From an uncultured Christensenella sp. (GTDB lineage: Bacteria > Bacillota > Clostridia > Christensenellales > UBA3700): a DNA stretch of 63,129 nt. The stretch covers positions 1-63,129 of the forward strand of contig CASDWJ010000034.1 of assembly GCA_949284695.1 (NCBI GenBank), given 5' to 3'. Below, one piece after another: positions 10,408-63,129 of this stretch (its first letter is position 1; the number at the start of each line of letters is the position of its first letter). The position numbers were made by a program, and so were the translations under genes. Below the pieces are notes generated by a model. The model made no database searches, was not told the origin of the DNA, and worked only from the letters and a program-made list of their open reading frames with translations.

Positions 10408-10424
10408 GTCGCGGGGTCGTGGGA

Positions 10425-10612: not shown

Positions 10613-10642
10613 TACTTATGCGCCCTTTCTATTACGTAGAAC

Positions 10643-10675
10643 AAAAAACCGCCGCTTTTCAGCGACGGTTTTTTT
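10643..10675. terminator. bidirectional terminator between mannosidase and nfeD-floA operon
   Basis: AAAAAACCGCCGCT, TTTC, AGCGACGGTTTTTT: 14-bp arms with one mismatch and A/T runs on both sides. Confidence 0.85.
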
Positions 10676-10687
10676 GTATTCAAACCG

Positions 10688-39209: not shown

Positions 39210-39236
39210 ATTACGTCTTTCCTGCCTTTAGCCACG

Positions 39237-39380
39237 GGGTGGTTGCCGTATCGGCTTCGCAAACCGCAACAACCGACGATCTGCGAAGCGACCGGTGCTC
39301 TCGGTAAAAGACACGGGTGGTTGCCGTATCGGCTTCGCGAAGCGCAACAACCGACGATCTGCGAAGCGACTTATGCTCTC
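39237..39380 (+). repeat. 78-bp-spaced direct repeat (two copies)
   Basis: Two ~66-bp copies start at 39237 and 39315: GGGTGGTTGCCGTATCGGCTTCGC, a short variable part, CGCAACAACCGACGATCTGCGAAGCGAC, then GCTCTC. They differ at only a few bases (AAACCG versus GAAGCG; CGG versus TTA). Self-complementary words (GGTTG/CAACC, GCTTCGC/GCGAAGC) let each fold. No protein is encoded. The second copy is preceded by GACACGGG, like the dispersed element. Confidence 0.8.
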
Positions 39381-39435: not shown

Positions 39436-39921
39436 TCAGACGAGAGTGATCTCGACGTCGAAGCCGTTGTGCTGATAGGTTATCGTGTATATCTCAACTT
39501 TATTGCTGAGGTAGTTACCCTTGAGGTGCACGTTTGCCTGCACGTCGATCCCGAGCACCGACTTGGCGTCCGCGAGCGCGCCTTCGATCTCGAAGGAACC
39601 TGTGACTTCCTCGAAAGACGCTTTGACTCCCTCGGCGAAATCGGAGAGCGCGAGGGTTTTGCCCGCGTTTTCCGCCACCTGTATATACGCGTCGGCGTCG
39701 ACGTCTATCCCCTCGTAGTCGCTCGAGCCCACGCCGTCCTTGTATGTGTAAACGGTATATTCTCCGCTTTTGACGGTCACGGCGAGGTTGTTTTGTTTTG
39801 CGCAAAGCGCGAATATCTGCTCGTAGACCTGCTCCTCGGTATTGCAAGCGGTCAGGAGCGTTGCCGCCAACGTCACGACCGCGACGAGCGCGATCGCCAG
39901 AACGATTTTCTTATTTTTCAT
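39436..39921 (-). CDS. small lipoprotein coupled to the 1803-aa MBG protein
   Basis: A 161-aa lipoprotein: signal helix and lipobox LLTAC (Cys26), then NTEEQVYEQIFALCAKQNNLAVTVKSGEYTVYTYKDG and a C-terminal VEIYTITYQHNGFDVEITLV. I recognise no family. It is paralogous in layout to the lipoprotein at 55290: same size, a helix with ALAAK/ALCAK after the lipobox, a GEYTVYTYKDG/GVFYIYDNG strand pair, and a final SYTDGNGYKVRISLA-like strand. Its start overlaps the end of the giant MBG gene by 11 nt, so the two are translationally coupled and presumably work together at the cell surface. Confidence 0.85.
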   Translation of the reverse strand: MKNKKIVLAIALVAVVTLAATLLTACNTEEQVYEQIFALCAKQNNLAVTVKSGEYTVYTYKDGVGSSDYEGIDVDADAYIQVAENAGKTLALSDFAEGVKASFEEVTGSFEIEGALADAKSVLGIDVQANVHLKGNYLSNKVEIYTITYQHNGFDVEITLV

Positions 39922-42900
39922 TGTCGCATCCTCCCTTGCGCTTCTTGATTATCACAGAGCCGACCGCGCACGCGCCGAGCGCGAGGGTCAGACCGCCGAC
40001 GGACACCGATATCACGGTCGCCGCGAGTTTCTGATAGCCCGACATCGTCGCGCCTGCCTTAAGAGCCGCCACGACGGTATCCGTCGCGCTGTTCATCAGC
40101 TCTGTATATTTTGCCTCGAGTCTGCCGACCACGTCCTCGTAAGTCGCGCTCTTGTCGCCCTCGGCGTTTGCCTGCCATGCGAGCACTCCCGCTATTTCGT
40201 TGGCGTTGTCAAAGCCGACCTCGACGTTGAGGTAGTTCCTGCCGACGTATTCTTCGAGCACGTCGAAGGTGATATTGGCGGTCACGGCTTTCGCCCCGCT
40301 TGCATTGTAATTAGCCGACTGCACGTAGCGCAGATATACGGTCACGGTATCGTTGACCGCAGTCGCGATCCTGCCGTTCGAAGCGAGCGCCTGCCACGAA
40401 GCGTTGTCGAGCGAATATTCGACCTCGCTCCTCTCGTTGACGGTGATCTCAATATAGCCGTAACCCATGCGCGCGGTAGCCTCGATCTCTCTGTCCGCAC
40501 GGCTGACGACGACGTCAATCATCACAGCCTCTGCGTCGTTGTAGTTTTTGAGACCATTGAGCACGAGCCCGACCCTGTAATTTCCTGCCGCAAGAATGGT
40601 CTGACCGCAATAAGCGTTCACGCTGTCAACCAAAGCCTCGTCGCCGTCGATAAGACCCTCGACGGCAACTTCTACCATATCGGCGGGATTGATTATGCTG
40701 CCGCTGTAAACGACGTGCTTTGCGGTCGCGTTGATGACGGGAGCCGTCGCCTTGGCGATCGTGAACGTCGCCGTAGCGAGCGCGTTGACCTGATAGTTGT
40801 CGTTGGCGACGACTTCTGCCGCCCTGACGTAATAGGTGCCCGCGTCGACGGGAGCGGTCGTCGAGAAGTTCCTGCCGTCGGTCGAATATTCAAACGTAAC
40901 GCCGATTTCGTCCTCTCCTACGAGGTTGTCCCAGACCGCCGTAGCGCCGCCGTAAGCAACGCCGTCATACGTCTTGCCCTCTACGCTGACGGTGCCCTGA
41001 AGCACGCGTTTTTCGACGTAAAGCGCCGCTTTGAGCGGAGCGCCGCCGTTGATCTCGTAATTGCTCTCGTTGTCGAGCGTATATTCGATTGTCACCTCTA
41101 TCACGGTGCCCGCCTGAGTTTCGCACGCGACGTACTCCTCGGAATAGCCGTAACCCGTGACCGCGAAATTGTCGCCGCCTATCATGCCGTCCGCACCGAC
41201 GAAGTATACTTCGTTGCCGCCGAGCTCATTGCCGTAGATAACGCTGTTATCCTTGAGCGTCACCGTGACGGGAGCTTGGGCGATGACGACCGTGACGATC
41301 GCCTGTTCGGTATTTTCGTAGTTTCTGAGACCGTTGAGGTTGGCGAACACGGTATATTCGCCCGCGTCGACGATATTGACCGCATAGCACACGGGCTGGA
41401 TATTGCCGAGAGACTCGTCGCCCTCGAACAAGCCGCTGACGCTGACGTCGACGATGTCGTTGACGCTCCATTGTTTGCCGTTGTAGACGAGGCCGTCTTT
41501 CGCCGTGAGAGTGATCACGGGAGCCGCCGCCTTGACGATATTGAACGCTACGCTGTCGCCGATGTCGCCGAGCGAGTAGTTGTCGTTGTCGATCGCGGTG
41601 ACTCTGACGTAGTATGTGCCGACGTCTACGGGCGCATTGTTGACGAACGAGACGTTGTCTATCGAATACTGCACGATGCAGTTGACGACGTCGCCTTCGA
41701 GTATTCCCTCGCTGTCGATGTACGCGCTGTCGTACGGTTTGCCGTCATAGCTCGCCTCGGGAGCGACGACGGAGCCGTTGACCTGTCTCTTGTCCACCGT
41801 CAGCCCGGCGACAACCGCTTCGCCGCCGTTGATCAGGTAATTGTCTGCGTTGCCGCTTGTGAACGTGAAGTTGAGCACGACGTCGACCACGCTTCCCGCC
41901 GCCGTTTTAACGACGTAATCGGTCGTATATTCAGCCGCGACCGCATCTTCGCCGACGAGTCCGACGACCGCGCTGTAGAAGTCTGAAGCGGCGTAAGTCA
42001 GCTCGTCGCCGTAAGTGACCTTCTTGTCGACCGTAGTCACAGTCACCGCCGCCTTGTCGACGGTCACCTCTTTGGATATTATCTCGGGCGCGTTGTAGTT
42101 GCCCGCGAAAGTCTCGCCTATCGCGAAGTCCTTGGTCGTAACGACTACCTTGCCGCCGGCATTGACTGCCGCCGCCTGATAAGCCTCGCCGCTGTCCGTC
42201 AGCGTGACGACCGTGAACGTGTAGGCGTTGTCGTCATAGACTCCGCTTACCGTCGGAGCGGTATCGCCCGTGACAGCCGCCTGACCGTATGCGAGCGTGA
42301 CCTGAATATTCGAGAAATCAACTTTGGGAGTCGACTTTTCGACGTAATATTCACCTATGCCCGCCGCGGAGTCGACTATCTCGTAGTTGGCGTTTGCCGA
42401 AGTCGCGGTTATCTTATAATATCCCGCGTTCTTCACGGAAGCCACGTTCGTAAACTCTCCGTCCTCGGTCGCGCTGTAAGTTATCGCGTAAGTTTTGTCG
42501 AACGTATCCGCCGTCGTCAGTCCGAAAGAGGTCTTGTCCTCGCCGTCATAGACCTTGTTCTGCAAAGCCGCCCAGCTCGCGTTGGGGGTCTCGCCGGTGA
42601 TATAGATCTTCTGCGTGACGATCATGACGCTGAACTCGACGCTCGCTTCTTCATAACGCGCGCTCATGAGAGTCGCCTTGACCGTATAAGCCGTCTCGCT
42701 GACGTTGAGCGCGTCCTCTATGACCGCGTCGCCTATCGAAAATTCGAAATAGTCGGTCTCCTCTTTGACCTCTGCGTCGTAATCGACCGCGCCGGAGAGT
42801 ATCTGCACGAGTTTGTCGACCGTGTTGACGTATTCGGTCGTAAAGACTCCGTCCACAACTTTATCCGTCGTGTTGACCGTTACGACCGTCGTGACCGTAA

Positions 42901-45322
42901 ACGTGTAGACGTTCGTTTCCAGGTTGTAGTTGGCATTGTCGAAAGTCACCCTGACGTAATATCTGTTCGATTCCGTCGGCATCGTATCCGACCACTCTGT
43001 CGCGTCCGCGCTCGTCGCGTAACCGTAGACGAACGTGAGCTCGTCGGGAAGGACTGTCGACGGTACGAACACCGCCGTCGCGCCGTCCGCGATCTGCTGA
43101 TTGGTAAACCTGTCGTTCTCGAGCGCGCCTGTGATCTGATACTGCGCAATGACCGCCGTCGCGTTGCCTGAAGTGAACTCATAGCTTCCCTCGTTGCCGT
43201 TCATAAGTACGTTGGCAATGCCGAGAGTGACCTCTGTGCCGGCATCCGTCATTTCGGTATATCCCGTTATCTCATAGCCCGTGAACGCGTCGGGAGCCTG
43301 CACGGTCTCGCTTACCTCAACGCCGCCGACGGAAACTATGCTGACGGGGTTATTGGTCTTGACAGTAGCAAGGCTGTCGCCGTAAGTGATATTGCCCGCG
43401 CCGTCGAACGCGATCTCAAGCGCGAGTTTTTCGATGCTTATCTGAATTTTCGCGCCGTCCTTGACGTTCATCTTATAGATAGCGCCGTTGGCGGTATCGA
43501 CGAGATAATTGCCCTCGGCGTTGGTCAATTGCACTTCGGTGAGTCCTGCCGCCGCGTAAAGTCCTTTGTTGAGAGTGAACTCGTATTCGCCCGCCGCGCC
43601 GCTGTTGGCTATGCTTCCGCTGAATACGTTTATGCTGCCAGTCTTGTCGCCCGCAGCCGTCTTGACGCTGATATCCTTGAGGTTGTTCACGCCGTCATAA
43701 GTCTTTGAGTACGAATAGACGTTGGTGTCCTTGTCATAAGTGAAGCCGTCCGCGATATCGGCGCTTCCCATAGTCAGGAAGTTCAGCGTATACAGCTTGC
43801 CGTAATTCTGTTGTCCGTTTGTGGAAAAAGGCACGTTCTCAAACATATCCATCGCAAGATATACGCTTCCCGTCTGACTCTCGTCCACGACTATAGTATA
43901 ATTCTCGACGTTCAGCACCTGATTGTTTTTGTCGGTAACGGAATAGAGCACGTCTTTGCCCTCCGTCCACACGGTGGACTGCTGTGCGGGAATTACCAGT
44001 TTACCGCTGCTTACGTACACGGGCGCGGAAATATCGTAAATTATACCGCCCGTATACCATTGCGCGCCGGTATCTCCCATAATATACTCGTCGCCCTGTT
44101 TGCTGTCAGAGGAGAAGTATGCGTTCATGACCGTCGTCTTGTTCGTGTCCATTCCTCCGGAGCCGACGATCGCACCGGTAGCGTTGGACTTGTTCATATT
44201 CGTCTTTTCGAGTACGCCCTTGAACATATAGTTGAGACCGTTAATGGAAAGAGTCCCGCCCGCCGTACCGCCGACTTCGCCTACAAATCCGCCTGCAAAG
44301 CCGTAATTGTTGCGGTGTTTAGCACCGATTCCCCATACACCGCCCGAAGATGCGCTGCTCTCGTTAAAGTTGTATATCTTTCCCGATCCTTCGAGATTGA
44401 CGTTGGTCATCGTCAGAAGTCCGCTGTTCACTCTGCCGACAAAGCCTCCCAGAATATAATATCTGTCTGCGTCGTCTGCCTGTCGCCAGCCGCTTATGCC
44501 GAAGCCCGCAACGGTCGATGCAGAAAGATTGGCATTGCCCGCGTTCGCGTTGACAGAGACAGTGGTCTCGTCTATCGTCGTATTGCCTGCGATATCGCCT
44601 ACAACGCCGCCGAGTATCAGATAATTGGGGGCACTTGATCCTCTTTGATTATAATCGTACAGATAAGTGACGTTTCTGTCCTGGTCATCCGCCTGATCCA
44701 TGCTTTCGGAAGATCCGTAGTTGAGATCAATGCGCACGTTCTCTATCTTCGCGTTGTTTGTTGCCTGACCCGCAATAATGCCCGCGATAGCGCCCACGTT
44801 ATCCGCACCTATCGCAAAGAGACTGACCTTTATCCTGACGTTCTTTATCGTGCCGCCGTCTATCGCTTTGAACAGACCTCCGACGACCTGATCTGTGCCT
44901 CCGCTCGAAGTCAACGGATTCTGACCCGTTGCTATGCTCAGCGTTATCGTGTGTCCGTTGCCGTCGAGAATACCTTTGAGCGTGGTGACCGCATCGTAAC
45001 TGCTGACGGCAACGTCCTCGGTCAGGTAGTAATACATATTCGTATTGTCTTTGCCGGGGATATAACTGTTCCAGCCTGTCTGTGTGATCGCCCGCGCCGT
45101 ATATCCTTCAGGCACGTTGGCGGTCGGGTCGTAATCCGAAGCGACGTCGCCGTTGGAGACGTAGCCTTCGTCCACGGCTATCTCTGCCGCGTAAGCCGAC
45201 TGCGCGCCGCCGCCCGTCACGATATTTTCAACGGTTGCGCCGAGTATGAACGTCAGCGCGACCGCGACTATTAAGAGCAATGCGGTGATGACCGCCGCGA
45301 TATTGTATCTTTTTCTTGTCAT
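39911..45322 (-). CDS. giant MBG-repeat surface protein (1803 aa)
   Basis: A signal-bearing surface protein. N-terminal membrane helix (about residues 7-30), then a GLUG/beta-helix-like region to ~500 (LKGILDGNGHTITLS, VVGGLFKAIDGGTIKNVRI, LGGFVGRVNSGLLTMTNVNLEGSG, AGGFVGEVGG). About ten MBG/YDG-type beta repeats follow with endings like VDVGTYYVRVTA, VDAGEYTVFANLN and VDAGTYYVRAAEV. At the end lie a helical segment, one membrane helix (LAATVISVSVGGLTLALGACAVGSVII) and KKRKGG. No LPxTG is present, so it is held by the terminal helix. The ATG at 45322 has SD GAGGAGG; the 45340 start contains that SD. It follows the 2616-aa lipoprotein directly and is likely an adhesin. Confidence 0.9.
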   Translation of the reverse strand: MTRKRYNIAAVITALLLIVAVALTFILGATVENIVTGGGAQSAYAAEIAVDEGYVSNGDVASDYDPTANVPEGYTARAITQTGWNSYIPGKDNTNMYYYLTEDVAVSSYDAVTTLKGILDGNGHTITLSIATGQNPLTSSGGTDQVVGGLFKAIDGGTIKNVRIKVSLFAIGADNVGAIAGIIAGQATNNAKIENVRIDLNYGSSESMDQADDQDRNVTYLYDYNQRGSSAPNYLILGGVVGDIAGNTTIDETTVSVNANAGNANLSASTVAGFGISGWRQADDADRYYILGGFVGRVNSGLLTMTNVNLEGSGKIYNFNESSASSGGVWGIGAKHRNNYGFAGGFVGEVGGTAGGTLSINGLNYMFKGVLEKTNMNKSNATGAIVGSGGMDTNKTTVMNAYFSSDSKQGDEYIMGDTGAQWYTGGIIYDISAPVYVSSGKLVIPAQQSTVWTEGKDVLYSVTDKNNQVLNVENYTIVVDESQTGSVYLAMDMFENVPFSTNGQQNYGKLYTLNFLTMGSADIADGFTYDKDTNVYSYSKTYDGVNNLKDISVKTAAGDKTGSINVFSGSIANSGAAGEYEFTLNKGLYAAAGLTEVQLTNAEGNYLVDTANGAIYKMNVKDGAKIQISIEKLALEIAFDGAGNITYGDSLATVKTNNPVSIVSVGGVEVSETVQAPDAFTGYEITGYTEMTDAGTEVTLGIANVLMNGNEGSYEFTSGNATAVIAQYQITGALENDRFTNQQIADGATAVFVPSTVLPDELTFVYGYATSADATEWSDTMPTESNRYYVRVTFDNANYNLETNVYTFTVTTVVTVNTTDKVVDGVFTTEYVNTVDKLVQILSGAVDYDAEVKEETDYFEFSIGDAVIEDALNVSETAYTVKATLMSARYEEASVEFSVMIVTQKIYITGETPNASWAALQNKVYDGEDKTSFGLTTADTFDKTYAITYSATEDGEFTNVASVKNAGYYKITATSANANYEIVDSAAGIGEYYVEKSTPKVDFSNIQVTLAYGQAAVTGDTAPTVSGVYDDNAYTFTVVTLTDSGEAYQAAAVNAGGKVVVTTKDFAIGETFAGNYNAPEIISKEVTVDKAAVTVTTVDKKVTYGDELTYAASDFYSAVVGLVGEDAVAAEYTTDYVVKTAAGSVVDVVLNFTFTSGNADNYLINGGEAVVAGLTVDKRQVNGSVVAPEASYDGKPYDSAYIDSEGILEGDVVNCIVQYSIDNVSFVNNAPVDVGTYYVRVTAIDNDNYSLGDIGDSVAFNIVKAAAPVITLTAKDGLVYNGKQWSVNDIVDVSVSGLFEGDESLGNIQPVCYAVNIVDAGEYTVFANLNGLRNYENTEQAIVTVVIAQAPVTVTLKDNSVIYGNELGGNEVYFVGADGMIGGDNFAVTGYGYSEEYVACETQAGTVIEVTIEYTLDNESNYEINGGAPLKAALYVEKRVLQGTVSVEGKTYDGVAYGGATAVWDNLVGEDEIGVTFEYSTDGRNFSTTAPVDAGTYYVRAAEVVANDNYQVNALATATFTIAKATAPVINATAKHVVYSGSIINPADMVEVAVEGLIDGDEALVDSVNAYCGQTILAAGNYRVGLVLNGLKNYNDAEAVMIDVVVSRADREIEATARMGYGYIEITVNERSEVEYSLDNASWQALASNGRIATAVNDTVTVYLRYVQSANYNASGAKAVTANITFDVLEEYVGRNYLNVEVGFDNANEIAGVLAWQANAEGDKSATYEDVVGRLEAKYTELMNSATDTVVAALKAGATMSGYQKLAATVISVSVGGLTLALGACAVGSVIIKKRKGGCDNEK

Positions 45323-45339
45323 TTTCTCGCCTCCTCTCA

Positions 45340-48300
45340 TCAGCCTTCTACGGGCGCGTCGACCGCCGCCGTCTTCTGCACGTACACGGTCAGAGATACC
45401 GTCTGCGTATTGCCCGCGCCGTCATATACGGTTGCGGTCACCGCAAACTCAGTCGCGCCCTGCTCTGCGGGTGTAGTCCCGGGAGCGGCGTCAAAGAATA
45501 CCGTTTCGTCTGTCACTATCACGTTGCCGAAGCCGAACAGAACGTCCGTCGTCGACGAACCGCCGTCAGCCAGCGTGGCTGTCAGCGTGACCGTAGCTTC
45601 TCCGTCCGCGACGTCGTAACTCTCGCCGTCGAGCACGATAGTGATCTCGCCCGTGGTCTCGTCGTATACTGCGACGTAGTATTCGTCTGCAAGTTCTTCA
45701 AATCCGACCACCTGCGCCGCGTTCACTTTTACGGGGATCTCAATCGAATAATCCTTGCCGTTGAGCGTGAACGAAGCAGTCGCCGCATATTCTCCGCCCG
45801 GGCTCGAGAACACGACGTCGTCCGTATTCCAGCTGACTTCGACGTCCTGCTCACCGCTTGCGGAGTTGCCAACCTTTATCGTGGACGGGAACTGCGCCGC
45901 GCCCGTCTCTCCCAGCGGATCGACGGCGATGACGCCGCCCTTGTAAACCACTTTGTCCACGGTCACGTTGACGGTGATCTCAACGCTATGCGCGACGTTT
46001 GCCGTGTCGGTTATGGAAATCGTCGCTTTGTATGCGCCCTCTGCTTCCGTCACCTGACCGAAGTCGAGAGTCGCCTCTCTCTGCAACGTCGTATTGTCGG
46101 AGAACTTCGCCGTCAGCGTCGCGGTCGCCGTCTTGTTCGCTGACAGATCGTACTCCGTGCCGCCTACGGTCACCTTGAAGGTGCCCGCCATCTCGTCGTA
46201 AACCGCGGTGTACGCTTCGTCAATACCCTCGAAGCCGACGAGTTCTCTCGCCGTGACCGTAACGGGTACGACCACGGTGTAAACTCTGCCGTTGTAAGTG
46301 AAGTTGGCAAGCGCGATATATTCGCCGCCCTTTGCCGAGAAGTCGACACCCGCGGTAAACCAGCTGTCTACCGCGATCTCACCGACTACCGTCGTCGAAT
46401 TGCCGACGTTGACCGTGGTCGGGAACTGCGCCGCGCCGCCCTCGCCGTAAGGATCGACGGTCACGCCGCTGCCGAGGTATTCGAGCGCGCCGGTGACTTT
46501 GACGGTCATCGCGCATCTCTGATAGAACGCGCTCTCTATCGCCGCGTCGTCGGAATAACCTATCTCTGCGTACATCACGACGTCGTAATTTGCCGCGTCG
46601 AAGGTCAGGCTCGCGAAGTCGAGCGCGTAGCCGTTCCTGTCAGTCCAGCGTATGGGCAGGACTTCGGTATATCCGTTTTCAAACTTCACCCATGCCGTGG
46701 TCGGGAACAGAGCCTGTTTTTCTTCCGCGGTCATCGCGTTGAAGCTGAGCGCGTCGACGCTGATCGTATTTCTTCTGAGCGCTCTGTCGAAGTAGATGCC
46801 CTCTATCACGTTGCTCTGCACGTCTATCGACACCTCTCTGCTCCAGCCGAAGTAATTGCCGTAAGCCTCCTTATCGAGGGTCGCGGTAGCCGTATAGACG
46901 CCGGGAGCGTTGTAGCCGAGCGTGGAGAAGTCGAAGTCGGTCGAGAAGATCACTTTGACGCTCTCGCTCCACGCCTCTCCGTTGAACAAGTAATTCGCGT
47001 CCACGTTCGTCGGCCACGGCGAATAGGTCGAGCCTTCCGCCGCCGTCAGCGTGTAGAGATAGTAGTCGTACGGGTTGATCACGACCTTGTCTTCCTCTCC
47101 GTCAATCGTCAGAGAAGTGACCTCTTTGCCCCTTATGCGCACGGTGATGTCAAGATCCTGTGCAAGGTTGCCTTCGCCTACGGTCGCTGTAGCGGTGAAT
47201 TCGAAGTCACCGAGGTCGGACGGCTGTCTCGTCGCGAACGCTTCGAGCACTTCTGCGTCCACAGCCCAGTTCTCAACGTCTATCGCGCCGTACTTGCCGT
47301 CGGAATAGGAGAAGAACAACTGCGTCGGGAGCTGACTCATTATATCGAGCGCGCTGTCGAACGTATACAGATCGAGCTCGTAAACTCCGCTCTCTCCGTC
47401 GCTTCCGAGAGTCGTGATCGTGCTGTCGAGATATTCGATATTCATCGTTATCTCTGCGCCGTTCCTGAACGTGACGGTCGCCTCGTAAGTGCCGCCCTCT
47501 ATCATGGGAGTGGGCATGTCGAGCTCCTTGATCGCAGACAGCTCTACTCTGCGCGACGACATATTCCTGAAGTAGACGATTATCGAGGACGGAGCGTCGT
47601 CGTATGCGTGCAGCCTCACCGTATCTATCAGTGCGGGCGCGAGGTTGGGATAAACCGTGATCGTGAATTCTCTCGACCTTGTCACTCCGTTGGGGAAGGA
47701 TACTTCTGCTTTGCCTTTGAGCGTTACCGTCTCGAGATTGTCGTTGTTCGCGTAATTCAGCAGTCCGAGAGACGTAGTGCCGAGAGTGATCTCCCCTCCG
47801 TAACTTCCCGTCTCCTCATTCCACATATAGAACTTGACGTTTGCTTTCATGACCGTCGTGCCCTGCTGATAGACTGCGATCTTGTCGTAGAAATAATTCT
47901 GTATGAACTCGTAGTCGCTGGTCACAACGTCGTTTTCGTATGCGAGCGGTTCAAACGACATATCGAATTCCATATTTCCCCAGTTGACGACTCCCGCCGT
48001 ATTGCTGCCGTCGACCGTATTGTCCGGGTCTCCCACCGACGAGAAGCAATCGTACAGATTGATCTCCGTCTTGTAGTTGTTGCTGCGATGATTCGCGTCG
48101 TAGACCAGATCGGTGGAGACGATATTGCTTTCGTTGTTCACGCAATACTTGCCGTGATATTCGAGCACTTCACCGTCTTCGTTCGTGACAGCCTGGTTGT
48201 AATCGTAACCCTCTATATAGATATTGGTCAGCGTGCCGTCCACGAGGTTGACTCCTGCGTTGACTTCGTTGTACACGGGGAGCGGCAATATCGCTTTGAC

Positions 48301-54282: not shown

Positions 54283-54296
54283 AATATGCGCTTACC

Positions 54297-54313
54297 TACA
54301 CGGGCGCAACAAA
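54297..54313 (+). repeat. dispersed ACACGGGC intergenic element, divergent copy
   Basis: TACACGGGCGCAACAAA, in the CTTACC context also seen as TTAACC at 31068. It lies between cwlJ and gerQ. Confidence 0.45.
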
Positions 54314-54327
54314 TATAGGAGATAAAT

Positions 54328-54594
54328 ATGGTAGACTTCAAACCCGAAAGACCCGAGGACTTCAACGAAAATCCTTATATCGGGTCGATACAGCAAGTGC
54401 TGTCGATGAACAAAGGCGAAGCGGTGATATGCGAATTTCTGATCGGCGCTTCAAACCTCGTGAACAAATCGGGGATACTCAATGCAGTGGCGGACAAATA
54501 CTTCGTGCTGTATCACCCCAACAACAATACTTATACCGTATGCGACATATATTCGGTAAAATTCATCACGTTCATCAACCGCTCGACGAGCTGA
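54328..54594 (+). CDS. gerQ: GerQ-like spore coat protein
   Basis: An 88-aa protein resembling the conserved C-terminal half of B. subtilis GerQ: YIGSIQQVLSMNKGEAVICEF, an NxSGILNAVADKYFVLYHPNNNTYTVCDIYSVKFITFI stretch matching the GerQ pattern xIENILRLNxGKxATVYM...G.IEAAGRDHIILSDPxTGxRYLLxxVYLDYVTF. It lacks GerQ's Gln/Pro-rich N-terminus. GerQ is a coat protein required for CwlJ localisation, and in Bacillus the two genes are also neighbours. SD AGGAGA is 8 nt before the ATG. It is followed by a strong terminator, ending a two-gene sporulation unit. Confidence 0.8.
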   Translation: MVDFKPERPEDFNENPYIGSIQQVLSMNKGEAVICEFLIGASNLVNKSGILNAVADKYFVLYHPNNNTYTVCDIYSVKFITFINRSTS

Positions 54595-54604
54595 AAACCC
54601 GTCA

Positions 54605-54629
54605 AAAAATCCCCTCAACGGGGATTTTT
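54605..54629 (+). terminator. terminator of cwlJ-gerQ
   Basis: AAAAATCCCC, TCAAC, GGGGATTTTT. Confidence 0.9.
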
Positions 54630-54674
54630 CGTCGCTTTAAAAACAACCGTGCCTTCGTCAAGGACAACCGTACG

Positions 54675-55166
54675 TCAGACCCAGTTCACGCCCCAGCCCA
54701 CGCCTGCCGTCAGAGCGATGATCGCCAGTATACCCAGCAAGGAAAAAATCACTCTTGCCCAGTCCTGCACGTCCTCAGGGTCTTTGACGATAAATTCCAG
54801 ATCCATACCGACGATCATACATAGCATGCCGCACGACCATACCGTGGCGGCGCCGAACACTATCGCCAATATCGCCTTGAGGAACTCCAGCCCTTCCCTG
54901 CAAAAATCCGCCGCCGCGAATATGTAAACGAGCGCGTATGCCAGAAAAAGCACGACGGCAAGGATCTTGCCTGTCACGGCGCTGCACTTGTTCAGGTTTA
55001 TTGTGTATCCGGATTGATACGTCGTCGAAATCGTGCCTGTGAACGGATTCCGCGAAATTTCTATTTTGCGTCCGTTGTAGACCAGAGTGACTCTGTACTC
55101 GTATCTTTTTTCGTATTTTTGGTGTACGTTGGAGATCCTGATGTTGCTCGAAGATCCGTCGATCAC
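54675..55166 (-). CDS. uncharacterised membrane protein
   Basis: A 163-aa protein of no recognised family. Residues 1-65 are a hydrophilic beta-rich domain (YRVTLVYNGRKIEISRNPFTGTISTTYQSGYTIN). Three or four membrane helices follow at about 70-90, 93-122 and 138-160. The start is GTG at 55166, just after GGGAAGGAA; the spacing is short, so the start is uncertain. It stands alone, converging on gerQ and upstream of the second MBG module's terminator. It may be a membrane stress or signalling protein, but nothing in the sequence shows it. Confidence 0.7.
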   Translation of the reverse strand: MIDGSSSNIRISNVHQKYEKRYEYRVTLVYNGRKIEISRNPFTGTISTTYQSGYTINLNKCSAVTGKILAVVLFLAYALVYIFAAADFCREGLEFLKAILAIVFGAATVWSCGMLCMIVGMDLEFIVKDPEDVQDWARVIFSLLGILAIIALTAGVGWGVNWV

Positions 55167-55230
55167 TTCCTTCCCGTTACAATCATATCACTTTTAAACG
55201 CCGCGGTCAATAAAACCAAGTGTTTTTTAT

Positions 55231-55262
55231 AAAAACCGCGGCTCCCCGCAAAGAGAGCCGCG
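55231..55262 (-). terminator. terminator of the second MBG module
   Basis: Minus strand CGCGGCTC, 10-nt loop, GAGCCGCG, then GTTTTTATAAAAA. Confidence 0.85.
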
Positions 55263-55289
55263 AAAAAAAGCGGTTTGCCTATATACCTT

Positions 55290-55766
55290 TTATGCAAGCG
55301 ATATCCTGACCTTGTAGCCGTTGCCGTCGGTATAGCTGATTATGAAAGTCGACAGTTTACTTGCCGCGGTGTCCGCTTCGAGAGTCACCTTTGCGCCGTC
55401 GATCCCGAGAGCGCCCGTGCCGACAAGTTCACCCGCAAGAGATATCCTGCCCGTGGTCTCGTCTGTTTCGCAGACGTATCCTTCCTTGAGGTTGTCGCGC
55501 TTTAAGACGACAGCCTCTCCCTTTGCCCCGACAACGTCCTCGAATTTTATGCCGAGGTTGTAGGTATCGGTGACCGTACCGTTGTCGTATATATAGAATA
55601 CGCCGTTGTCGTCAGACACTTCCACTTTGAGATATCCGCTTTTTGCCGCTAAGGCAAACGCGTCGTTGATACGGGATTCCTCGCTCGTCGTGCAAGCCGA
55701 AGCGCACAGCGCGACGACGATCAGGATTGCGGCGACCGCCGCGATGATTGCCTTACTTTTCTTCAT
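55290..55766 (-). CDS. small lipoprotein coupled to the second MBG protein
   Basis: A 158-aa lipoprotein with lipobox CASAC (Cys25), then TTSEESRINDAFALAAKSGYLKVEVSDDNGVFYIYDNG and a C-terminal TFIISYTDGNGYKVRISLA. It has the same build as the lipoprotein at 39436 and occupies the same place: it starts inside the last codons of a giant MBG gene, overlapping by 14 nt. This conserved coupling suggests the two proteins are made in fixed ratio and interact. The function is unknown. A terminator follows. Confidence 0.85.
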   Translation of the reverse strand: MKKSKAIIAAVAAILIVVALCASACTTSEESRINDAFALAAKSGYLKVEVSDDNGVFYIYDNGTVTDTYNLGIKFEDVVGAKGEAVVLKRDNLKEGYVCETDETTGRISLAGELVGTGALGIDGAKVTLEADTAASKLSTFIISYTDGNGYKVRISLA

Positions 55767-58700
55767 CTTTTTTTCCTCCCTTGCGTTTTACAGCCACGCC
55801 CAGCGCCGCCGCCGCGCACAGCGATACTCCGCCCAGCGCGAGCGCAACGGTCGTTGCGACCTGATATCCAGCGAGCTTGCCGCCCGTAGTCAGCGCGTTT
55901 CTGACCGCCTCGGAAGCGCCGCTCACAAGCGCTTCTCTCTCCTCGGACAGAGTTTTCAACGCCGCGTCGAACTCTGCATTGTCGCCGTCCGCATTTGCCG
56001 CGAGCGTTTCGAGGAACGCTATGTCCTCTGCGTCGGCAAGCGTGGTCTCTCCGTCAAACCTCTCGTTGACGTACTGCATCAACGCCGCCTTGGTCACGTT
56101 GGCAGATACCTTGACGGGCGCGCTTGCGTTGTAATTGGAATTTTCGGCATATCTGACGTAATAGGTATATTCAGCCTGCAATTCTACGTCAATAGCGCCG
56201 TCGTAGACCTCCCAGACGTTGCCGTCGAGCGAATACTCGATCTCTGTCGAAGCTACGCCCTCCGCGCTTATTTCGACCGTCCTGTAGCCGACCGTCACGG
56301 TCGCGTCGACCTCTCTCGTACCCTTTCTGACCGTGAACCTGTAGCTGACGGGTGTCGCAGTATAATTGGTGTTGGAAGGATCGATCTGCGCGGTCACGGT
56401 ATAAGTGCCCACGCTGAGGACCGTGCCGCTCACGGTGACTTTTATATTCAGACCGTCCGTCACGGTGAAGTTTTCTGCAAGCTGCGCTTCGCTGACCGTA
56501 ACGCCGTCGTAATACTTCTCTCTGTCGCCGTTGGTCGTGATCGTTACCGCCTTTTTCGCGATCGTCATATTCACCGCATAATCGGTATCTGCCGAGAAGC
56601 GGTAGTTGACGGTGTCGGGCAGTTTGGCGACGACCACGTATTCTCCCGCATTGACGGCCGCGCCGTCGAGGACGGTGCCGTTCCTGAGTTCGTAAGCGAG
56701 AGAGATCTGCGCGCCGCCGTAAAGCGTGCCGTCCGTAAGCGCGAACGTCGCGACCTTTGCCGTACCGTCGTAGACGAGGTTGTCGGGAAGCGTGATCTCA
56801 ACCGACAACGTTACGGGAGTGATCTTCCACGCGAGCTCCTTGTTGGCGGTCGTGCCGTCGCTCCACTCGTAGTTTGTCTTATCGGTCAGCGCGACTGCAA
56901 CGTTGTAATTGCCGACGTTGGTGCCGACGTTGCCTGCGACTACGTAATAGCGCGCGTCCTCGGGCACGCCGACCGTCTGTGCCGCGGCATTGTATTCAAC
57001 CGACGTATTGTCGAGCGCGGGCACTTCTACCCTGAGCCTGTTGACCGTTATATTGAACGATACCGTCATGTTGCCGTAAGCAAGGGTTACGGTCGTGACC
57101 TTTGCGGTCAGTCTGTCGACGCTTGCGTCTGCGTCGTCAAAGGAGATCTCACACTCCGCGACCGTGACCGTCTGCGCTTCATCGACGCCCTCGAAGGTCG
57201 CCGTGAGCGCGATACCCGTCGTATCGAACGCGTCGAACGCGTCGTAGACCGTCTTGTCGGGTCCGCTGACGAGCTCGAAGCCTGTCAGTATCTCGTTGCC
57301 GACGGTGAGGGTCACTTTGCCGCTCGTTCCCGTGTAATTTACAGTATCGTCGGGCGTAAATATCCAGGTCACCTCGTTCTCGCCCTCGACGAGCAACAGA
57401 TCGGGGGTCTCCCATTCGATCGTACCCGCAGTGCTTCCGTCGTCGAGCGAAATGCCGACCGTGGAGAGTTTGTCTCCTATCTGCATGAGTTTTTCCTGTA
57501 CTTTTACGTTGACAGTCGGCGACGCGATCGTGACGGTATAGGTCACCTTGCACGCGACTGCGCTATAGTTGATATCGTCTACGTTTGCGGTTATTTCGTA
57601 GCTGCCCGTGCCGAGCACTTCAACGCCGTCCGCTACGGTCACGGAGATCGCAACTTTGCCGCCGCCTATCGCGTCGGGAGCGACGAACAGCGCCTTGAGT
57701 TCGTCCTCTGTCAGCGCGTTGCCGTCGTAGACTTTTGTCATATCGGCGCCGCTTGCCGCGATCTGTACGCTCGCGGGCGCGACGTTCCACTTTACGGTCA
57801 AAGCGCGCACGTCGTCATTGAGACCCGACCACTTGTAGTTGTCGTCGATCAGGGTAAATTCCGCCGTATATCCGTCAGCCGACACTTCGGTAGCCTTGAA
57901 CGTACCGCCCACCGTATATCTGTTTTCAACGTCGTTGTCGAAAGCCGTCTGCTCCTCGCCGTTGTAGGTAAGGCTCTTTGCCGTCGGGGTCGTAACGCTC
58001 GCCCTCGCGACGGTCATCTGATAGCTCAAACCGTCCGCCACCGCGTAGTTGTTGTCGACGCAGACAAAGGTCACCGTATAAGCGCCCGCGTTTACGGGAG
58101 CGGTCTCCTCGCCGTTGTAGAAGGTCTTGAGCGTCACGTCCTCGCCCTTTACTCCGATACCCGTCGCGGTCACCTTGTTGGACGTGCCGCTGTATGTAAA
58201 TCCGAGACCGCCCACGGAAATATCGTCCGCGGAGAGAACTTTCTTCTGCACGGTCATCTTCCTGCTGACGTTTTCGACCAGGTTTATCTTGATATTCTTA
58301 TATACGTATACGGTATATTCGCCCGCGTCAACCGCTTCGTCCAGATAGGACGTGCCGTTGAAATAGACGATGCCGTACGTGTTGCCGTCCGTCGCCGTAT
58401 AATTCAGCGTTGCGACGTGCGCCTTGCCGTCATAGACCATATCGTCGTCCGCGGGGAGCACGATGCTGTCGCTCGTCATACCGTCGGGCGCGGTAGCTGT
58501 GGGCGCGACTATCTCGACGCGCACTCCCGTCGGCGCGACGTAATAGTCCGCCTGCGCGCCTGTCAGCGTAAATTCTACGTCATATGCGCCCATTTCGATC
58601 GCGGCAACGGCAGAACCCGCCTGCCTGTACGTCACGGTGCCGATCGCGACATCGTCGCCGTCGACCTTGCCTCCTGTGATCGAGAATACGAACGTCAGCT

Positions 58701-61700
58701 CTTTTCCCGTATATTCAAGGGTCGCTTCCTCTGCGGAAATCTCAAGGACTGCGTTGTTTATCGTAAGCGTTGCCTGCGTTTCTTCAACGGTCACGTTGTA
58801 GTTGTCGTTTGCGTTGTGGCTGACGGTCAGAGAGTAACTGCCCGGGGTATAGGCGGCGCCCGCGCCGACGGTCACCTTCACGTCGTCCGTCTCATAGAAG
58901 CCGTCCGCACCCGTCACGGTGTAGCCGCTGAAATCGTACGCATTGCCGTCATACGTCTTGTCCACGTTCGTTTCCGCCTTGAGCGTCACGTTCTTCGCAA
59001 CGACGGTGAACGTATATTCGCTCTGAGATTCGTCTATCGAATAGTTGGGATCGCTGTAACCGACGACTTTTACCGTCGCGACGTCTTCCGCGTTCAGAGC
59101 CGCCGTATTATTATAGGATATTTCTATAATAAAGTCCGACCAGTTGCCTTCGCCGAACACCGCGTTCTTTATCTCGTCATCGGTGTAAGCCTCGCCTTTG
59201 TATGCCGCCGTCTTGTTTTCGCCCTCAAGGCTGACCGTGCCCTCAGTTACGGTAAACGTATAAGAGGTCACCGCTCCCTGAGCAAACTCGTAGTTGTCCG
59301 CGTCCTTGAGCGTAAGGGTCACGGTCGCGACGTCTCCCGCCTGTTCTGCCTTGCCGCTCTCGCCGTAAGTTATCTCAACGTTTACGAGAGAGAGGTCAGC
59401 ATCTTTGAATACCGCGGCTTTGATCTGCTCCTCGGTAAACGCTTCGCCCTTATAGACCGCGGTCGCGTTGCTTCCCGCGATATTGACCGTCGCTTTGTAT
59501 ATTTCGAGTTCCGCGGTGTTGTCAGTGCCCAGCACATAGTTATCGTTGCCAGATATCTTCAGAGAAATCTCGTATTCGCCTGCATTGACGGGCTTTTCTT
59601 CGCTTCCGTTATAAAGCACGGTGACCGTCAGCGTATCGTCGCCGATGAGCGACCCGTCTTTCACCGTCACGTCCACACCGTGCGGTTTGCCGTCGTAAAC
59701 GATGTCGGCACCCGCATTTTCGTACACGAATACGAAATCGCTATGAGTCAGCTCTTTGGGCGAAATCATGAGAACGACTTCACCGTCCGCCGTCTTAATA
59801 TCGTAGTTGCCGACCGCCGCGCCGCCGTAGGACTGTACGGTTACGGTATACGAACCCGCGTTTACGGGGACTGCCGCTTGCCCGTTGTAAAGAAGATCCG
59901 CGGTCAGCTCGTCGTCTGCGAGCTTGCCGTCGAAAGATACCGCGGCGACGTGAGCCGAGCCGTCGTACGTCGCGTTGCTTGCGGTGACGGTCGCGGTGAT
60001 CGCCTTCTTTGCTATCTCAAATTCTTTTTCTGCCGTCGCGCCGAGATAATTCTCGGTCTCTGCAACGGTCGCGGTCACCTTGTAAGTACCCGCGTTTATC
60101 GGAGCGTTCGCGCTCGCAACGTATTCCGTATTGCCCGTGCCGACGTAAGAACACGTCACCTCTCCGCTCTCGGTATTGCCGCTGACAGAAGGCTCGTTTG
60201 CGACATCGCCGTACGTCCAGCCGTCGATCGAGACGGTCACGCTTCTCTGCGCCTTTGCGACGGTAAATTCGACGACTGCGGAAAGTCCAGTATAGCTCTC
60301 TCCGCCGTCGGGATCGATTGACGCCGCAACGCTGAATCTCATCAGATATACGCCTGCGTCAAGTGCGGAGAGATCTCCTGCGTCAACGTAGTCGGTATCG
60401 CTGCCCGACTTGAGCCTGATCTGCTTGACGACCGTATCGTTGCCGTATGCCGCCTGATATACGGGCGCGTTTTCTTCGGTATAGCCGCCGTAAGTCCAGC
60501 CCTTTACCGCAGGATTGACCGTCCAGGAGTTGATATTCACGTCCTGCGCGACGATTTCGTACTGCACCTTTATAACGCCGTCGTTGTCGTCGTCGCCGCT
60601 TGCCCACGCGTAGTTATCGCCGTTTTTCAACGTAAGCGTTGCGAAATAGACGTTGATCTCCGTGCCTCCGTCGTCCTGCACGGTATAATACTCGTTGTCG
60701 ACGAGACCCGACGTAATCGTTTCTCCCGTATACTGTTTGTCCTCTACGACGGGCACCTCTACAATCTCTTTTTCTATCGTAAAGTCCGCGCTGACTACTT
60801 TCTGAGCATAGTTGCCGTTTGCCGCTATCGTCGCGGTCACGGTATAGGCTCCCGCGTTTTTCGGCGCGGTCTCGCTTTCTTCATAGACGGTTTCTCCTCT
60901 GCCCGTGTACTTATAAGTGACGTTGCCGCTGCCCGGGTTGTTCGTCACCGTCGGCTGAGAAGCCGCCTGACCGAAAGTCCAGCCGCTTATCTGCACCGCC
61001 GCGTCGAAGTCTGCCGCGGTGATCTCAAAGTTATCTGCGGTTTCGCCCGTAAGCACATAGTTGGTATCGCTCGTCGTAGCGACTGCGCCGTATATGCCGA
61101 CGTTGATCGCCTCTGCGTCCAGACCGTCCCGCGTCGTCTTTACTGTAAGTTCGAGAAGGTCGTCTCCTTCGAGTTCTTCATCTGACACGGTAGCCGTAGG
61201 TTTGAGAGGATCTCCCGTGTAGGACTGCGACATATCGCTCCATACCACCTCGACGGATTTAGCGTTGACGGTTATCGTCCTGCTGCCCGTTACAGTATTA
61301 TAATTGTCGAAAGTTATCTGATAATAAACGGTGACCGCCCCGCCCGCGTTCGTAACGCCGTAGCTGTCAAGCGTATAATCGTTTTCAGTCGTGCCGTATT
61401 TTACAACGCCGCCCGAACTTGCAAGATCTTCATTGTTCTTGAAGCCTTCAAGTGCTATCTCAAGCGAATAATCCGCCGCTTTATATGTGCCGACTACGTT
61501 TTGCGTATTGTCGAGCAATTCGGCTTTTGCGACGGTAAATATCGCGCTTACGGCATTGCCGCCCTCGTAGTTTTCGGTTGCGTCAACTGCAACGGTGACT
61601 TTATATCTGCCCGCCGCCTCAGGCGCGTCGGCAGAGCTGTACACCGTGCCTTCTACTCCTTCATACAGGAAAGACTCTGCGCCGCCGCCCTCGTTGCCCG

Positions 61701-63129
61701 AGACAACGGGAACGCTTGCCGTGTCGCCATACGTCCAGCCCGCTACGGTAACGCCGACGCTTATCGCCTTTTTGGTGATTTCAAACTCTTTGGTCGCGTT
61801 TGTTAGAGTGTAATTTGCGTTGTCGGTGGTCGCCTCTGCGGTATATGTGCCGGCATTGACCGCGCCGCCCGCCTGAACTTCGCCCTGCGCGTTCTTTATC
61901 GTCAATACGATATTGACGCTTTCCTGCCCTACTCCCGTCGCGGCAGCCGTCGGAGCCTGAGCCATGCCGCTGTATTCAAATGAGCTCGTATCGCTCCACG
62001 TCACGGCAACGCTTAGCTTGGTGACCGTAGCCGTAACGACGGGCTGAGAAGCAAGCTCGTAGTTGCCCGCTTTCTCGCCGTTGAGAACAGCCGTGACGTT
62101 GACCGTCTTGCCTTCGCCTGCGTCTGCGCTGTCGAGCGTACCCGTTATATCAAATCCTACCTTGCCTTCGTCCGCCGTAACGACGCCCGAAAGGGTTCCT
62201 CCGCTAAGCGTGACGTCGGTCGTGCCGTCGTAGGGGCGCTCCTGAGCCGTAACGCCCTCTATCGAGACCGCCTTTTTAGCCACGCTGAATTCAATAGTCT
62301 TTGTCTGAGAATCGTCACCGAACGAGTAATCGTTCAGAAGCGTTACGGTGATGACGTAATCGCCCGCATTTACCGGCTTATTATTCGACACGCTGCCCGT
62401 GCCGCCCTCTTTAGCGGTAACGGTTACCGTGTAATCTCCGCTCTGCAGCGCCGTCGTGCCCGACGTGAGCTGACCTATCTGCACCTCTATCTCTCCGCCG
62501 TTGTATACGAGATCTTCTGAAGAAGTCGTGATCGTCGGATCGTTTACGGGTGCCTTGCCCTGAACGAGCGTGACTGTAGTATTTGCCGATATAGCGGTTT
62601 TGGGGATCGTAACGATCGTGAAATTGTCTTCTTGCACTCCGACTATATCGTCATATGATACCAGCGGACATTCGCTTTTACCGTCTCCTGCAACGAGCAC
62701 GAGTTCTCCGTTGTTAGTTACGGGGAAATACGGGGTCACGGGGATATCGCTGTCCGCGACAGTGGTCTCTATCACGATCTTGTCGCACGCGACGGGTTTG
62801 CCGTAAGTCATAGAACCCGTATATGTCGTTACGTTTCCGTACGTATAGACGTTACTGATATTCACGGTATTGCCGGACTGAGCGTTGCGCACGACCACTT
62901 CGTACGCGCTTCTGCCGCTTGACAACGTGCCGTTGAACGAATTGATAAAGCCGTTGACGTTCACCGCGCTTACGCCTCCGCCGACAACGCCTGCGCCTGC
63001 CGTATGTACGCCCTCGCCGGCATTAGCTACGCCGTCCAGCATTCCGTTGCCTTTGAACGTAAGATCGGTATAATTGACGCTTCCGCCGTTCAGATGTCCG
63101 ACAAAGCCCGCGATAAACGTATATTGCGC
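55753..63129 (-). CDS. giant MBG-repeat surface protein, 5' end beyond the window
   Basis: At least 2458 residues; the frame is open to the right edge, and the upstream codons read TFIAGFVGHLNGGSVNYTDLTFKGNG, which is GLUG-like, so the gene is cut off. About 22 MBG/YDG-type beta repeats of ~80-95 residues fill it (endings VNAGTYTAEATT, KNAGAYTVTATIA, INAGTYKVTATVA, VNAGEYVVVAKLP), many preceded by SGWTYGDxAxxPxV blocks. The C-terminus repeats the 1803-aa protein: a helical region, ALTTGGKLAGYQVATTVALALGGVSLCAAAALGVAV, then KRKGGKKDEEK. No LPxTG. It is expected to be a long fibrous adhesin or matrix protein held by the terminal helix. Paired with the lipoprotein at 55290. Confidence 0.88.
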   Translation of the reverse strand, partial: AQYTFIAGFVGHLNGGSVNYTDLTFKGNGMLDGVANAGEGVHTAGAGVVGGGVSAVNVNGFINSFNGTLSSGRSAYEVVVRNAQSGNTVNISNVYTYGNVTTYTGSMTYGKPVACDKIVIETTVADSDIPVTPYFPVTNNGELVLVAGDGKSECPLVSYDDIVGVQEDNFTIVTIPKTAISANTTVTLVQGKAPVNDPTITTSSEDLVYNGGEIEVQIGQLTSGTTALQSGDYTVTVTAKEGGTGSVSNNKPVNAGDYVITVTLLNDYSFGDDSQTKTIEFSVAKKAVSIEGVTAQERPYDGTTDVTLSGGTLSGVVTADEGKVGFDITGTLDSADAGEGKTVNVTAVLNGEKAGNYELASQPVVTATVTKLSVAVTWSDTSSFEYSGMAQAPTAAATGVGQESVNIVLTIKNAQGEVQAGGAVNAGTYTAEATTDNANYTLTNATKEFEITKKAISVGVTVAGWTYGDTASVPVVSGNEGGGAESFLYEGVEGTVYSSADAPEAAGRYKVTVAVDATENYEGGNAVSAIFTVAKAELLDNTQNVVGTYKAADYSLEIALEGFKNNEDLASSGGVVKYGTTENDYTLDSYGVTNAGGAVTVYYQITFDNYNTVTGSRTITVNAKSVEVVWSDMSQSYTGDPLKPTATVSDEELEGDDLLELTVKTTRDGLDAEAINVGIYGAVATTSDTNYVLTGETADNFEITAADFDAAVQISGWTFGQAASQPTVTNNPGSGNVTYKYTGRGETVYEESETAPKNAGAYTVTATIAANGNYAQKVVSADFTIEKEIVEVPVVEDKQYTGETITSGLVDNEYYTVQDDGGTEINVYFATLTLKNGDNYAWASGDDDNDGVIKVQYEIVAQDVNINSWTVNPAVKGWTYGGYTEENAPVYQAAYGNDTVVKQIRLKSGSDTDYVDAGDLSALDAGVYLMRFSVAASIDPDGGESYTGLSAVVEFTVAKAQRSVTVSIDGWTYGDVANEPSVSGNTESGEVTCSYVGTGNTEYVASANAPINAGTYKVTATVAETENYLGATAEKEFEIAKKAITATVTASNATYDGSAHVAAVSFDGKLADDELTADLLYNGQAAVPVNAGSYTVTVQSYGGAAVGNYDIKTADGEVVLMISPKELTHSDFVFVYENAGADIVYDGKPHGVDVTVKDGSLIGDDTLTVTVLYNGSEEKPVNAGEYEISLKISGNDNYVLGTDNTAELEIYKATVNIAGSNATAVYKGEAFTEEQIKAAVFKDADLSLVNVEITYGESGKAEQAGDVATVTLTLKDADNYEFAQGAVTSYTFTVTEGTVSLEGENKTAAYKGEAYTDDEIKNAVFGEGNWSDFIIEISYNNTAALNAEDVATVKVVGYSDPNYSIDESQSEYTFTVVAKNVTLKAETNVDKTYDGNAYDFSGYTVTGADGFYETDDVKVTVGAGAAYTPGSYSLTVSHNANDNYNVTVEETQATLTINNAVLEISAEEATLEYTGKELTFVFSITGGKVDGDDVAIGTVTYRQAGSAVAAIEMGAYDVEFTLTGAQADYYVAPTGVRVEIVAPTATAPDGMTSDSIVLPADDDMVYDGKAHVATLNYTATDGNTYGIVYFNGTSYLDEAVDAGEYTVYVYKNIKINLVENVSRKMTVQKKVLSADDISVGGLGFTYSGTSNKVTATGIGVKGEDVTLKTFYNGEETAPVNAGAYTVTFVCVDNNYAVADGLSYQMTVARASVTTPTAKSLTYNGEEQTAFDNDVENRYTVGGTFKATEVSADGYTAEFTLIDDNYKWSGLNDDVRALTVKWNVAPASVQIAASGADMTKVYDGNALTEDELKALFVAPDAIGGGKVAISVTVADGVEVLGTGSYEITANVDDINYSAVACKVTYTVTIASPTVNVKVQEKLMQIGDKLSTVGISLDDGSTAGTIEWETPDLLLVEGENEVTWIFTPDDTVNYTGTSGKVTLTVGNEILTGFELVSGPDKTVYDAFDAFDTTGIALTATFEGVDEAQTVTVAECEISFDDADASVDRLTAKVTTVTLAYGNMTVSFNITVNRLRVEVPALDNTSVEYNAAAQTVGVPEDARYYVVAGNVGTNVGNYNVAVALTDKTNYEWSDGTTANKELAWKITPVTLSVEITLPDNLVYDGTAKVATFALTDGTLYGGAQISLAYELRNGTVLDGAAVNAGEYVVVAKLPDTVNYRFSADTDYAVNMTIAKKAVTITTNGDREKYYDGVTVSEAQLAENFTVTDGLNIKVTVSGTVLSVGTYTVTAQIDPSNTNYTATPVSYRFTVRKGTREVDATVTVGYRTVEISAEGVASTEIEYSLDGNVWEVYDGAIDVELQAEYTYYVRYAENSNYNASAPVKVSANVTKAALMQYVNERFDGETTLADAEDIAFLETLAANADGDNAEFDAALKTLSEEREALVSGASEAVRNALTTGGKLAGYQVATTVALALGGVSLCAAAALGVAVKRKGGKKDEEK

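Follow-up and report, generated by a model that had tools for sequence, protein, structure and literature searches.

In a stretch of DNA of 63,129 nucleotides (nt) from an uncultured Christensenella sp. (GenBank assembly GCA_949284695.1, contig CASDWJ010000034.1), hereafter the window, two genes for very large surface proteins, here called giants, are each followed by a gene for a small lipoprotein, which raises the question of whether the two products belong together and what the one would do for the other. The source genome (G000, with the window as G000:C34) is a draft of 1.85 Mb that is 81% complete. The initial annotation of the window had proposed that the pairing is constant and that the lipoprotein may be a chaperone, anchor, or export partner of a giant fibre. 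Within the families searched in this study, giant and lipoprotein are a nearly obligate pair: among the Clostridia genomes examined, with the families combined, a lipoprotein partner accompanies 101 of the 107 giants that share this C-terminus. The pairing was tested in both directions, first in the family of the source genome and then in two others, and is reinforced by natural gene fusions, so that the partnership is well supported. Of the conditions that would have spoken against the initial proposal, neither was encountered: related giants usually do have the lipoprotein, and the two lipoproteins of the window are related to each other.

Both modules of the window lie on the minus strand, and the 3' end of each giant gene runs into the start of the lipoprotein gene. 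The first module consists of giant P0002 (1809 amino acids (aa); 39911..45340, -) and lipoprotein P0001 (161 aa; 39436..39921, -), and the second of giant P0005 (55753..63129, -) and lipoprotein P0004 (158 aa; 55290..55766, -). The genes overlap by 11 and 14 nt, respectively, which bears out the earlier statement that the small lipoprotein starts inside the last codons of the giant. P0001 has a signal peptide and the lipobox LTAC with Cys26, followed by a predicted LolA/LprG-like domain; the lipobox of P0004 is ASAC, with Cys25. The two lipoproteins, rather than being unrelated, are homologous in sequence (31% over 140 aa, E 6e-10), and so are the C-termini of the two giants (29% over 407 aa, E 1e-27). 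The C-terminal 190 residues common to the modules (39914..40483, - in P0002; 55756..56325, - in P0005) comprise a helix region, a transmembrane helix (TM), and a tail, which reads KKRKGGCDNEK in P0002 and KRKGGKKDEEK in P0005. In P0002, the signal peptide and the repeats were recognised by eye, and the start is possibly the second ATG, at 45322, which comes after AGAGGAGG. P0005 has an open frame of 2458 aa and is incomplete, as the contig edge cuts the gene and its 5' end is missing. The duplicated gene order is confirmed and goes beyond chance, with two further modules elsewhere in the genome. A lipoprotein profile search gave four good matches in G000 (E 3e-6 or better), the two of the window and two new ones. 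Of the latter, P0008 (contig 26) lies directly behind the giant P0011, which has 2555 aa, and P0009 (contig 29) directly behind P0010, which has 2227 aa.

To follow the lipoprotein beyond this genome, a profile of the four G000 lipoproteins was compared with 149 whole genomes, G000 included. At E<=1e-7 it gave 57 matches (four in G000 and 53 in relatives), and all 57 lie at the 3' end of a giant, two of them with contig or N caveats. In 42, the match starts between -14 and +16 nt relative to the stop of the giant, and 13 are in-frame fusions of the lipoprotein with the C-terminus of the giant. Of the remaining two, the one in G038 is broken by Ns and probably fused, and the one in G008:C62 has only 731 nt upstream, which reads as the tail of a giant and is matched by the giant profile. 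Another 76 weaker rows were left out, so that the rule "always behind a giant" holds for strong matches; many of these rows cover the signal peptide only, some cover at least 100 columns, and G018:C6 and later G100:C3 were inspected. In the reverse direction, a profile of the last 190 residues of 17 giants was run against 46 genomes of the family of G000 (f1), and 73 matches out of 100 rows reached profile position 180. A lipoprotein-like partner is present for 68 of these 73 giants (17 fused, one with Ns, and 50 separate), and the five without a partner all belong to one class of giants.

The pairing extends to two further families. In family f19 and in one genome of family f3, the 14 out-of-family matches to the lipoprotein profile that reached position 147 or beyond were inspected, shorter matches being left out, and all 14 lie directly behind a surface protein. 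With a profile of the C-termini of those surface proteins, run against 14 genomes of which 12 had been picked for having a lipoprotein match, 33 of 34 giants have a partner, the exception being G313:C10. This includes 19 of the 20 newly found giants, whose lipoprotein starts between -35 and +15 nt from the stop; the 19 new partners score 28.9-53 bits on a profile of other lipoproteins, and the best of 26 controls scores 22.7. Homology was likewise checked for the 28 partners found by position or by weak matches, using mature parts only and a profile of the other 73: 26 of them score 28-86 bits, against the same best control of 22.7 bits.

The five unpaired giants of f1 and five similar proteins with shorter matches form one family (29-86% identity over the last 400 residues) of about 3,080-3,120 aa where complete, and no such lipoprotein was found in the kilobase downstream of any of the ten. 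In this class, the linker before the membrane helix differs from that of the paired giants, e.g., the 25 residues before the TM hold on average 5.5 Gly and Pro in unpaired (n=10) versus 2.6 in paired (n=82) giants (Mann-Whitney p 3e-5, which serves as a guide only since the rows are related). G000 itself carries a giant of this kind at locus L119 (G000:C44, C-terminus near 9,440-11,112, -), with a frame of 3,093 aa, a TM, a Gly-rich linker, and no lipoprotein partner. Over the last 400 residues it has nine relatives in genomes of the same genus, and it is a useful negative control.

Outside the order, no convincing member was found among 391 genomes of the class, some of which belong to the order, and 398 genomes of the phylum, with the best candidates, at most nine per genome, being scored, so that distant relatives may be missed. 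The class search gave four matches besides the own genome, which by eye are a foldase-like protein, two solute-binding proteins, and one lipoprotein of 110 aa; in the phylum search, the own genome was the sole match. The 110-aa lipoprotein (L163, G672:C46), from another family of the class, scores 22.7 bits on the lipoprotein profile without its signal peptide, above the partners of G025:C20 and G021:C16; it may be distantly related, or its score may simply show the noise level. In G255:C89 and G247:C58, which come from a different family within the order, open frames of 9552 and 9802 aa match the lipoprotein profile over its signal-peptide part.

The exposed part of the giants varies. Pfam recognises MBG_3 (85.7 bits, cut-off 25) and YDG in P0005, YDG and Big_3 in P0011, and MBG_2 in P0010 at 19.5 bits, which is under the cut-off of 25, and gives no family for P0002, even at E 5. 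The earlier description of the giants as MBG/GLUG proteins therefore applies to P0005 as far as MBG is concerned; P0002 is without a Pfam match, and Pfam did not call a GLUG family in the giants, the GLUG label coming from reading of the sequence. The giants of f19 and f3 have, by eye, other exposed sequences, and a tie between the pairing and MBG repeats is thus not upheld. Giant lengths range from about 550 to 4,400 aa, and what remains constant is the C-terminal arrangement, in which a helix-rich region leads into a single TM and a basic tail that is short (about 2-26 residues after the best hydrophobic stretch in separate giants), followed by the lipoprotein. The pairing follows the type of C-terminal anchor, not the exposed part. 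No Pfam family matches more than two members of the lipoproteins or of the giant C-termini at E 0.1.

Sortase substrates have a signal peptide, a long extracellular part, a C-terminal hydrophobic helix, and a basic tail, and are anchored to the cell wall via LPxTG. The giants resemble them in the first four features and differ in having a dedicated lipoprotein instead of the motif and its enzyme. As the initial annotation had stated, LPxTG is lacking: no LP.T[GAN] or NP.T[NG] motif is present in five large proteins of G000. No sortase was detected in any of 29 f1 genomes searched, G000 included. Of 14 control genomes, three were positive with the model used, as were nine of the 18 genomes from other families. 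The absence of sortase in the family fits an alternative anchoring unit without proving one.

The KRKGG tail had been listed among the features of the protein. Its codons contain the Shine-Dalgarno sequence of the lipoprotein gene, AAG GGA GG, and it is not evidently a protein signal. In the window, AAGGGAGG lies within the KRKGG codons of both giants as the Shine-Dalgarno sequence of P0001 (39930..39937, -) and of P0004 (55775..55782, -), with the ATG 8 nt on. All 21 giants that end in KGG or NGG plus a few residues, which are related pairs and not independent cases, have GGAGG 8 nt before the lipoprotein start, and the codons of their tails are AAGGGAGG, AAAGGAGG, or AACGGAGG. The first Gly of the tail is GGA in 21 of 21, whereas GGA makes up 218 of the 1082 codons for Gly (20%) in five large genes of G000. 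Four g3 pairs carry AAGGAGG in a different reading frame, so that the tail becomes KEE or KED. In pairs without an overlap, GAGG or AGGAGG is found at the stop codon or shortly after it, and the giant ends in a tail such as KKKFVF, with no KGG. In 13 of 13 fusions, GGAGG is absent from the last 40 nt before the lipoprotein match, and the G042 fusion has one further up. As GGAGG lies in the KGG or NGG codons in 21 of 21, is read in another frame in g3, and is absent near the fusion points, the motif is a ribosome-binding site inside the giant gene. For the same reasons, together with the non-overlapping pairs that lack KGG, a role of KRKGG as a protein sorting tag was rejected. Overlap or short spacing, combined with a downstream Shine-Dalgarno sequence in the upstream gene, is the arrangement expected for translational coupling, and it was found in 21 of 21 pairs. 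Overlapping unidirectional gene pairs often encode subunits of a complex, as described in PMC10666635. More generally, this case warns against taking every conserved motif at a C-terminus for a sorting signal, as it can be a ribosome-binding site.

Gene fusions account for 17 of the 68 paired f1 giants, namely, the 13 of the forward test and four found later (G035, G037, G041, and G043). On a tree of 81 lipoprotein domains, which has few columns and many unresolved forks, the fewest changes between fused and separate forms is three, and the fused groups are a clade of 13, a clade of three, and G027. Lipoprotein signal peptides end in a lipobox with a Cys, for which PMC5817068 gives a consensus. 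A loose lipobox pattern was matched by all 17 fused partners and by 63 of the 65 separate ones. In the four later fusions the pattern also served to cut the sequence, and the Cys was seen directly. Of the two misses, G385f19 (CSAC) is an artefact of the pattern, while in G018:C6 the lipobox is truly missing; G013:C12 matches the pattern but looks doubtful. The lipobox Cys is thus kept in 17 of 17 fusions, and in 12 fused C-termini, all from the large clade, it is the sole invariant residue between K172 and A211 (numbering of the first row), as would be expected if lipidation, and probably cutting by LspA, still occurs. LspA was found in 28 of 30 genomes, G000 included.

The clade of 13 fusions seems to occupy the same place in the genome as the separate P0009 module. 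That module is followed by a gene for an HI0933-like flavoprotein (L014:7831-9003, -). By eye, such a flavoprotein also follows the fused g4 modules G035, G037, G041, and G043 and three separate g6 modules, and these neighbours may mark one ancestral locus. The fbcH cytochrome b/c1 precursor, for which no paper was found, is likewise a bacterial precursor with an internal export signal, at which it is cut; the fused giants differ from it in that their internal signal bears a lipobox and would be cut by LspA.

For mature P0001 with 12 relatives, AlphaFold2 predicted an N-terminal helix and a mostly beta domain (predicted local distance difference test (pLDDT) 86, predicted template modelling score 0.78). 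When this model was compared with PDB using Foldseek, the first match was Mycobacterium tuberculosis LprG (E 1.2e-3, probability 1.00), and the first eight were all LprG or LolA (E 1.2e-3 to 0.1). A sequence profile search of PDB gave three matches at chance level (best E 0.27), and at E 0.1 no family of Pfam or NCBIfam matches more than two of the 20 lipoproteins compared, the best E-values being 6.6e-4 and 8.8e-4. The predicted model is thus weakly LolA/LprG-like, without making the lipoprotein a proven member of the superfamily. PMC6363788 describes members of the LolA superfamily that carry lipid or bind a protein partner, e.g., LolA, LprG, and RseB; the lipoprotein studied here shares the predicted fold with these proteins and differs in pairing with a surface protein. 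A parallel in Clostridia is found in PMC8496864, in which GerS, a LolA-like lipoprotein of Clostridioides difficile, binds and activates the exported amidase CwlD. Both cases involve a small lipoprotein with a LolA-like fold, predicted in the present one, as the dedicated partner of an exported protein, but CwlD is an amidase and Pfam gives no amidase family in P0002, P0005, P0010, or P0011. Searches of the open-access PMC literature for the giant-lipoprotein pair, internal lipoboxes, and bacterial polyproteins with lipoproteins found nothing on the pair.

Taken together, these results make it somewhat more probable than not that giant and lipoprotein constitute a two-part surface-display module, a co-translated unit for membrane anchoring or assembly in which the LolA/LprG-like lipoprotein sits at the giant's base. 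The giant would be exported by Sec and halted in the membrane by its C-terminal helix, with the short basic tail inside. The lipoprotein would be translated from the Shine-Dalgarno sequence inside or at the end of the giant gene, and coupling would place it at the same site and in linked amounts. After lipidation it would remain on the outer leaflet, where its LolA/LprG-like domain may dock on the juxtamembrane helix region or the TM exit of the giant and form a base that folds, holds, or protects it. The fused form, seen in some genera, runs from the giant through the TM and a lysine-rich loop to a second hydrophobic segment with the lipobox and the lipoprotein domain, and the retained lipobox predicts an LspA cut that would yield the same two mature proteins. 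Since the fusions are at the C-terminus of the giant and the pairing goes by anchor type, the probable target of the lipoprotein is the helix region or the point where the TM leaves the membrane; both the fusions and the LolA/LprG-like model speak for a partner close to the membrane, at the foot of the giant. A bolder version, put forward tentatively and with more doubt than confidence, is that this is a sortase-independent kind of anchoring of its own, found in part of one Clostridia order, with large exoproteins bearing helix domain, TM, and basic tail as clients, each with a clamping lipoprotein of LolA fold, and with the fusions as polyproteins cut by LspA.

Several observations weigh against this reading. 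Six giants, five of one class and G313:C10, have no partner, and the pairing counts are not independent, as the genomes are related and many are drafts. Two partners, those of G025:C20 and G021:C16, score 20.8 and 11.1 bits, below the best control of 22.7, so that homology is not shown for them, and they are lipoproteins by position and lipobox. Those of G013:C12 and G018:C6 have no normal lipobox yet score as relatives, which indicates that lipid anchoring is not strictly needed. These two giants (L128 and L085) are short, with open frames of 629 and 662 aa, and their partners have a hydrophobic N-terminus that lacks a normal lipobox Cys. Nine of the 18 genomes of other families are likewise without a sortase, and the link to sortase loss is therefore only suggestive. 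With respect to the fold, no Foldseek match was obtained at E 0.001, the TM-scores are 0.34-0.45, and a search with the fused model gave no LprG or LolA among the 50 matches listed. Moreover, the TM and loop stretches of the fused model have pLDDT below 50, so that no contact between the halves can be taken from it.

The role of the lipoprotein might accordingly be conceived in other ways. It could be an export or folding chaperone, i.e., a dedicated foldase or holdase in a PrsA-like placement that would receive the giant on its exit from Sec without becoming part of the finished fibre. A gene directly behind the giant, with its Shine-Dalgarno sequence in or at the end of the giant gene, would suit such a helper, proteins of such length may need one, and LolA folds hold hydrophobic segments, as stated in PMC6363788. 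However, the at least three C-terminal fusions give 1:1 amounts and the fused lipoprotein would emerge last, late for most of a chain of several thousand residues, and the pairing tracks the C-terminal anchor rather than the exposed part; a chaperone is hence considered an improbable, though not a negligible, explanation. Slightly less probable still is a sensor or regulator that binds the juxtamembrane part and controls cutting, shedding, or signalling, like RseB with RseA or GerS with CwlD. The similar fold class, the single-pass partner, and the fewer Gly and Pro before the TM in paired than in unpaired giants are in line with it, but the tails of separate giants leave no room for a signalling domain.

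Co-expression alone, with two surface proteins that share an operon for balanced expression and make no contact, is the least likely of the explanations weighed here. Overlap and an internal Shine-Dalgarno sequence would suffice for coupling, but co-expression alone does not account for a pairing that is kept across three families while the exposed part changes, that is confined to one anchor type, and that has led to at least three fusions.

Other features of the window lie around the modules. Directly upstream of P0002 is the gene for P0003 (45340..53190, -), a giant lipoprotein of 2616 aa with two List_Bact repeats near its N-terminus, the stop of which overlaps the first possible ATG of P0002. 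Orthologues (64-75% identity) directly precede the equivalent module in six loci of the same genus, and distant relatives (24-25%) directly precede two g3 giants; relatives at up to about 100 nt before the giant were found for the six same-genus modules, G014:C12, G034:C46, and perhaps G027:C3. The remaining fetched modules have no P0003 relative directly upstream, with many loci ending before the 5' end of the giant. A search of P0003 for repeats of the small-lipoprotein domain gave no support for them, the signal peptide alone being scored. The gene exists as annotated; P0003 is not supported as a constant part of the module, since its relatives directly precede some giants only. Terminator-like hairpins occur behind both lipoproteins, with 10 pairs after P0001 (39391..39414, -; one found versus a shuffle mean of 1.5) and 12 pairs after P0004 (55236..55263, -; two in the region versus a shuffle mean of 3.2), and these counts are not above those of shuffled sequence. 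Downstream of P0001, at about 39,180-39,380, a direct repeat (CGCTTCGCAGATCGTCGGTTGTTGCG...CGGCAACCACCC) was seen by eye; it is imperfect, measures about 55 bp, and shows inverted symmetry internally.

To our knowledge, no dedicated anchoring machinery is known for the surface giants of family f1, and the one-to-one lipoprotein partner is a concrete and testable candidate for such machinery in a family without a detected sortase. The natural fusions could be used as they stand to learn whether LspA can cut inside a polyprotein, and profiles of the giant C-terminus and the lipoprotein, neither of which is named by Pfam, could annotate many "hypothetical" surface proteins. The pairing and the mergers point to a mode of assembling or retaining surface fibres that has not been described.

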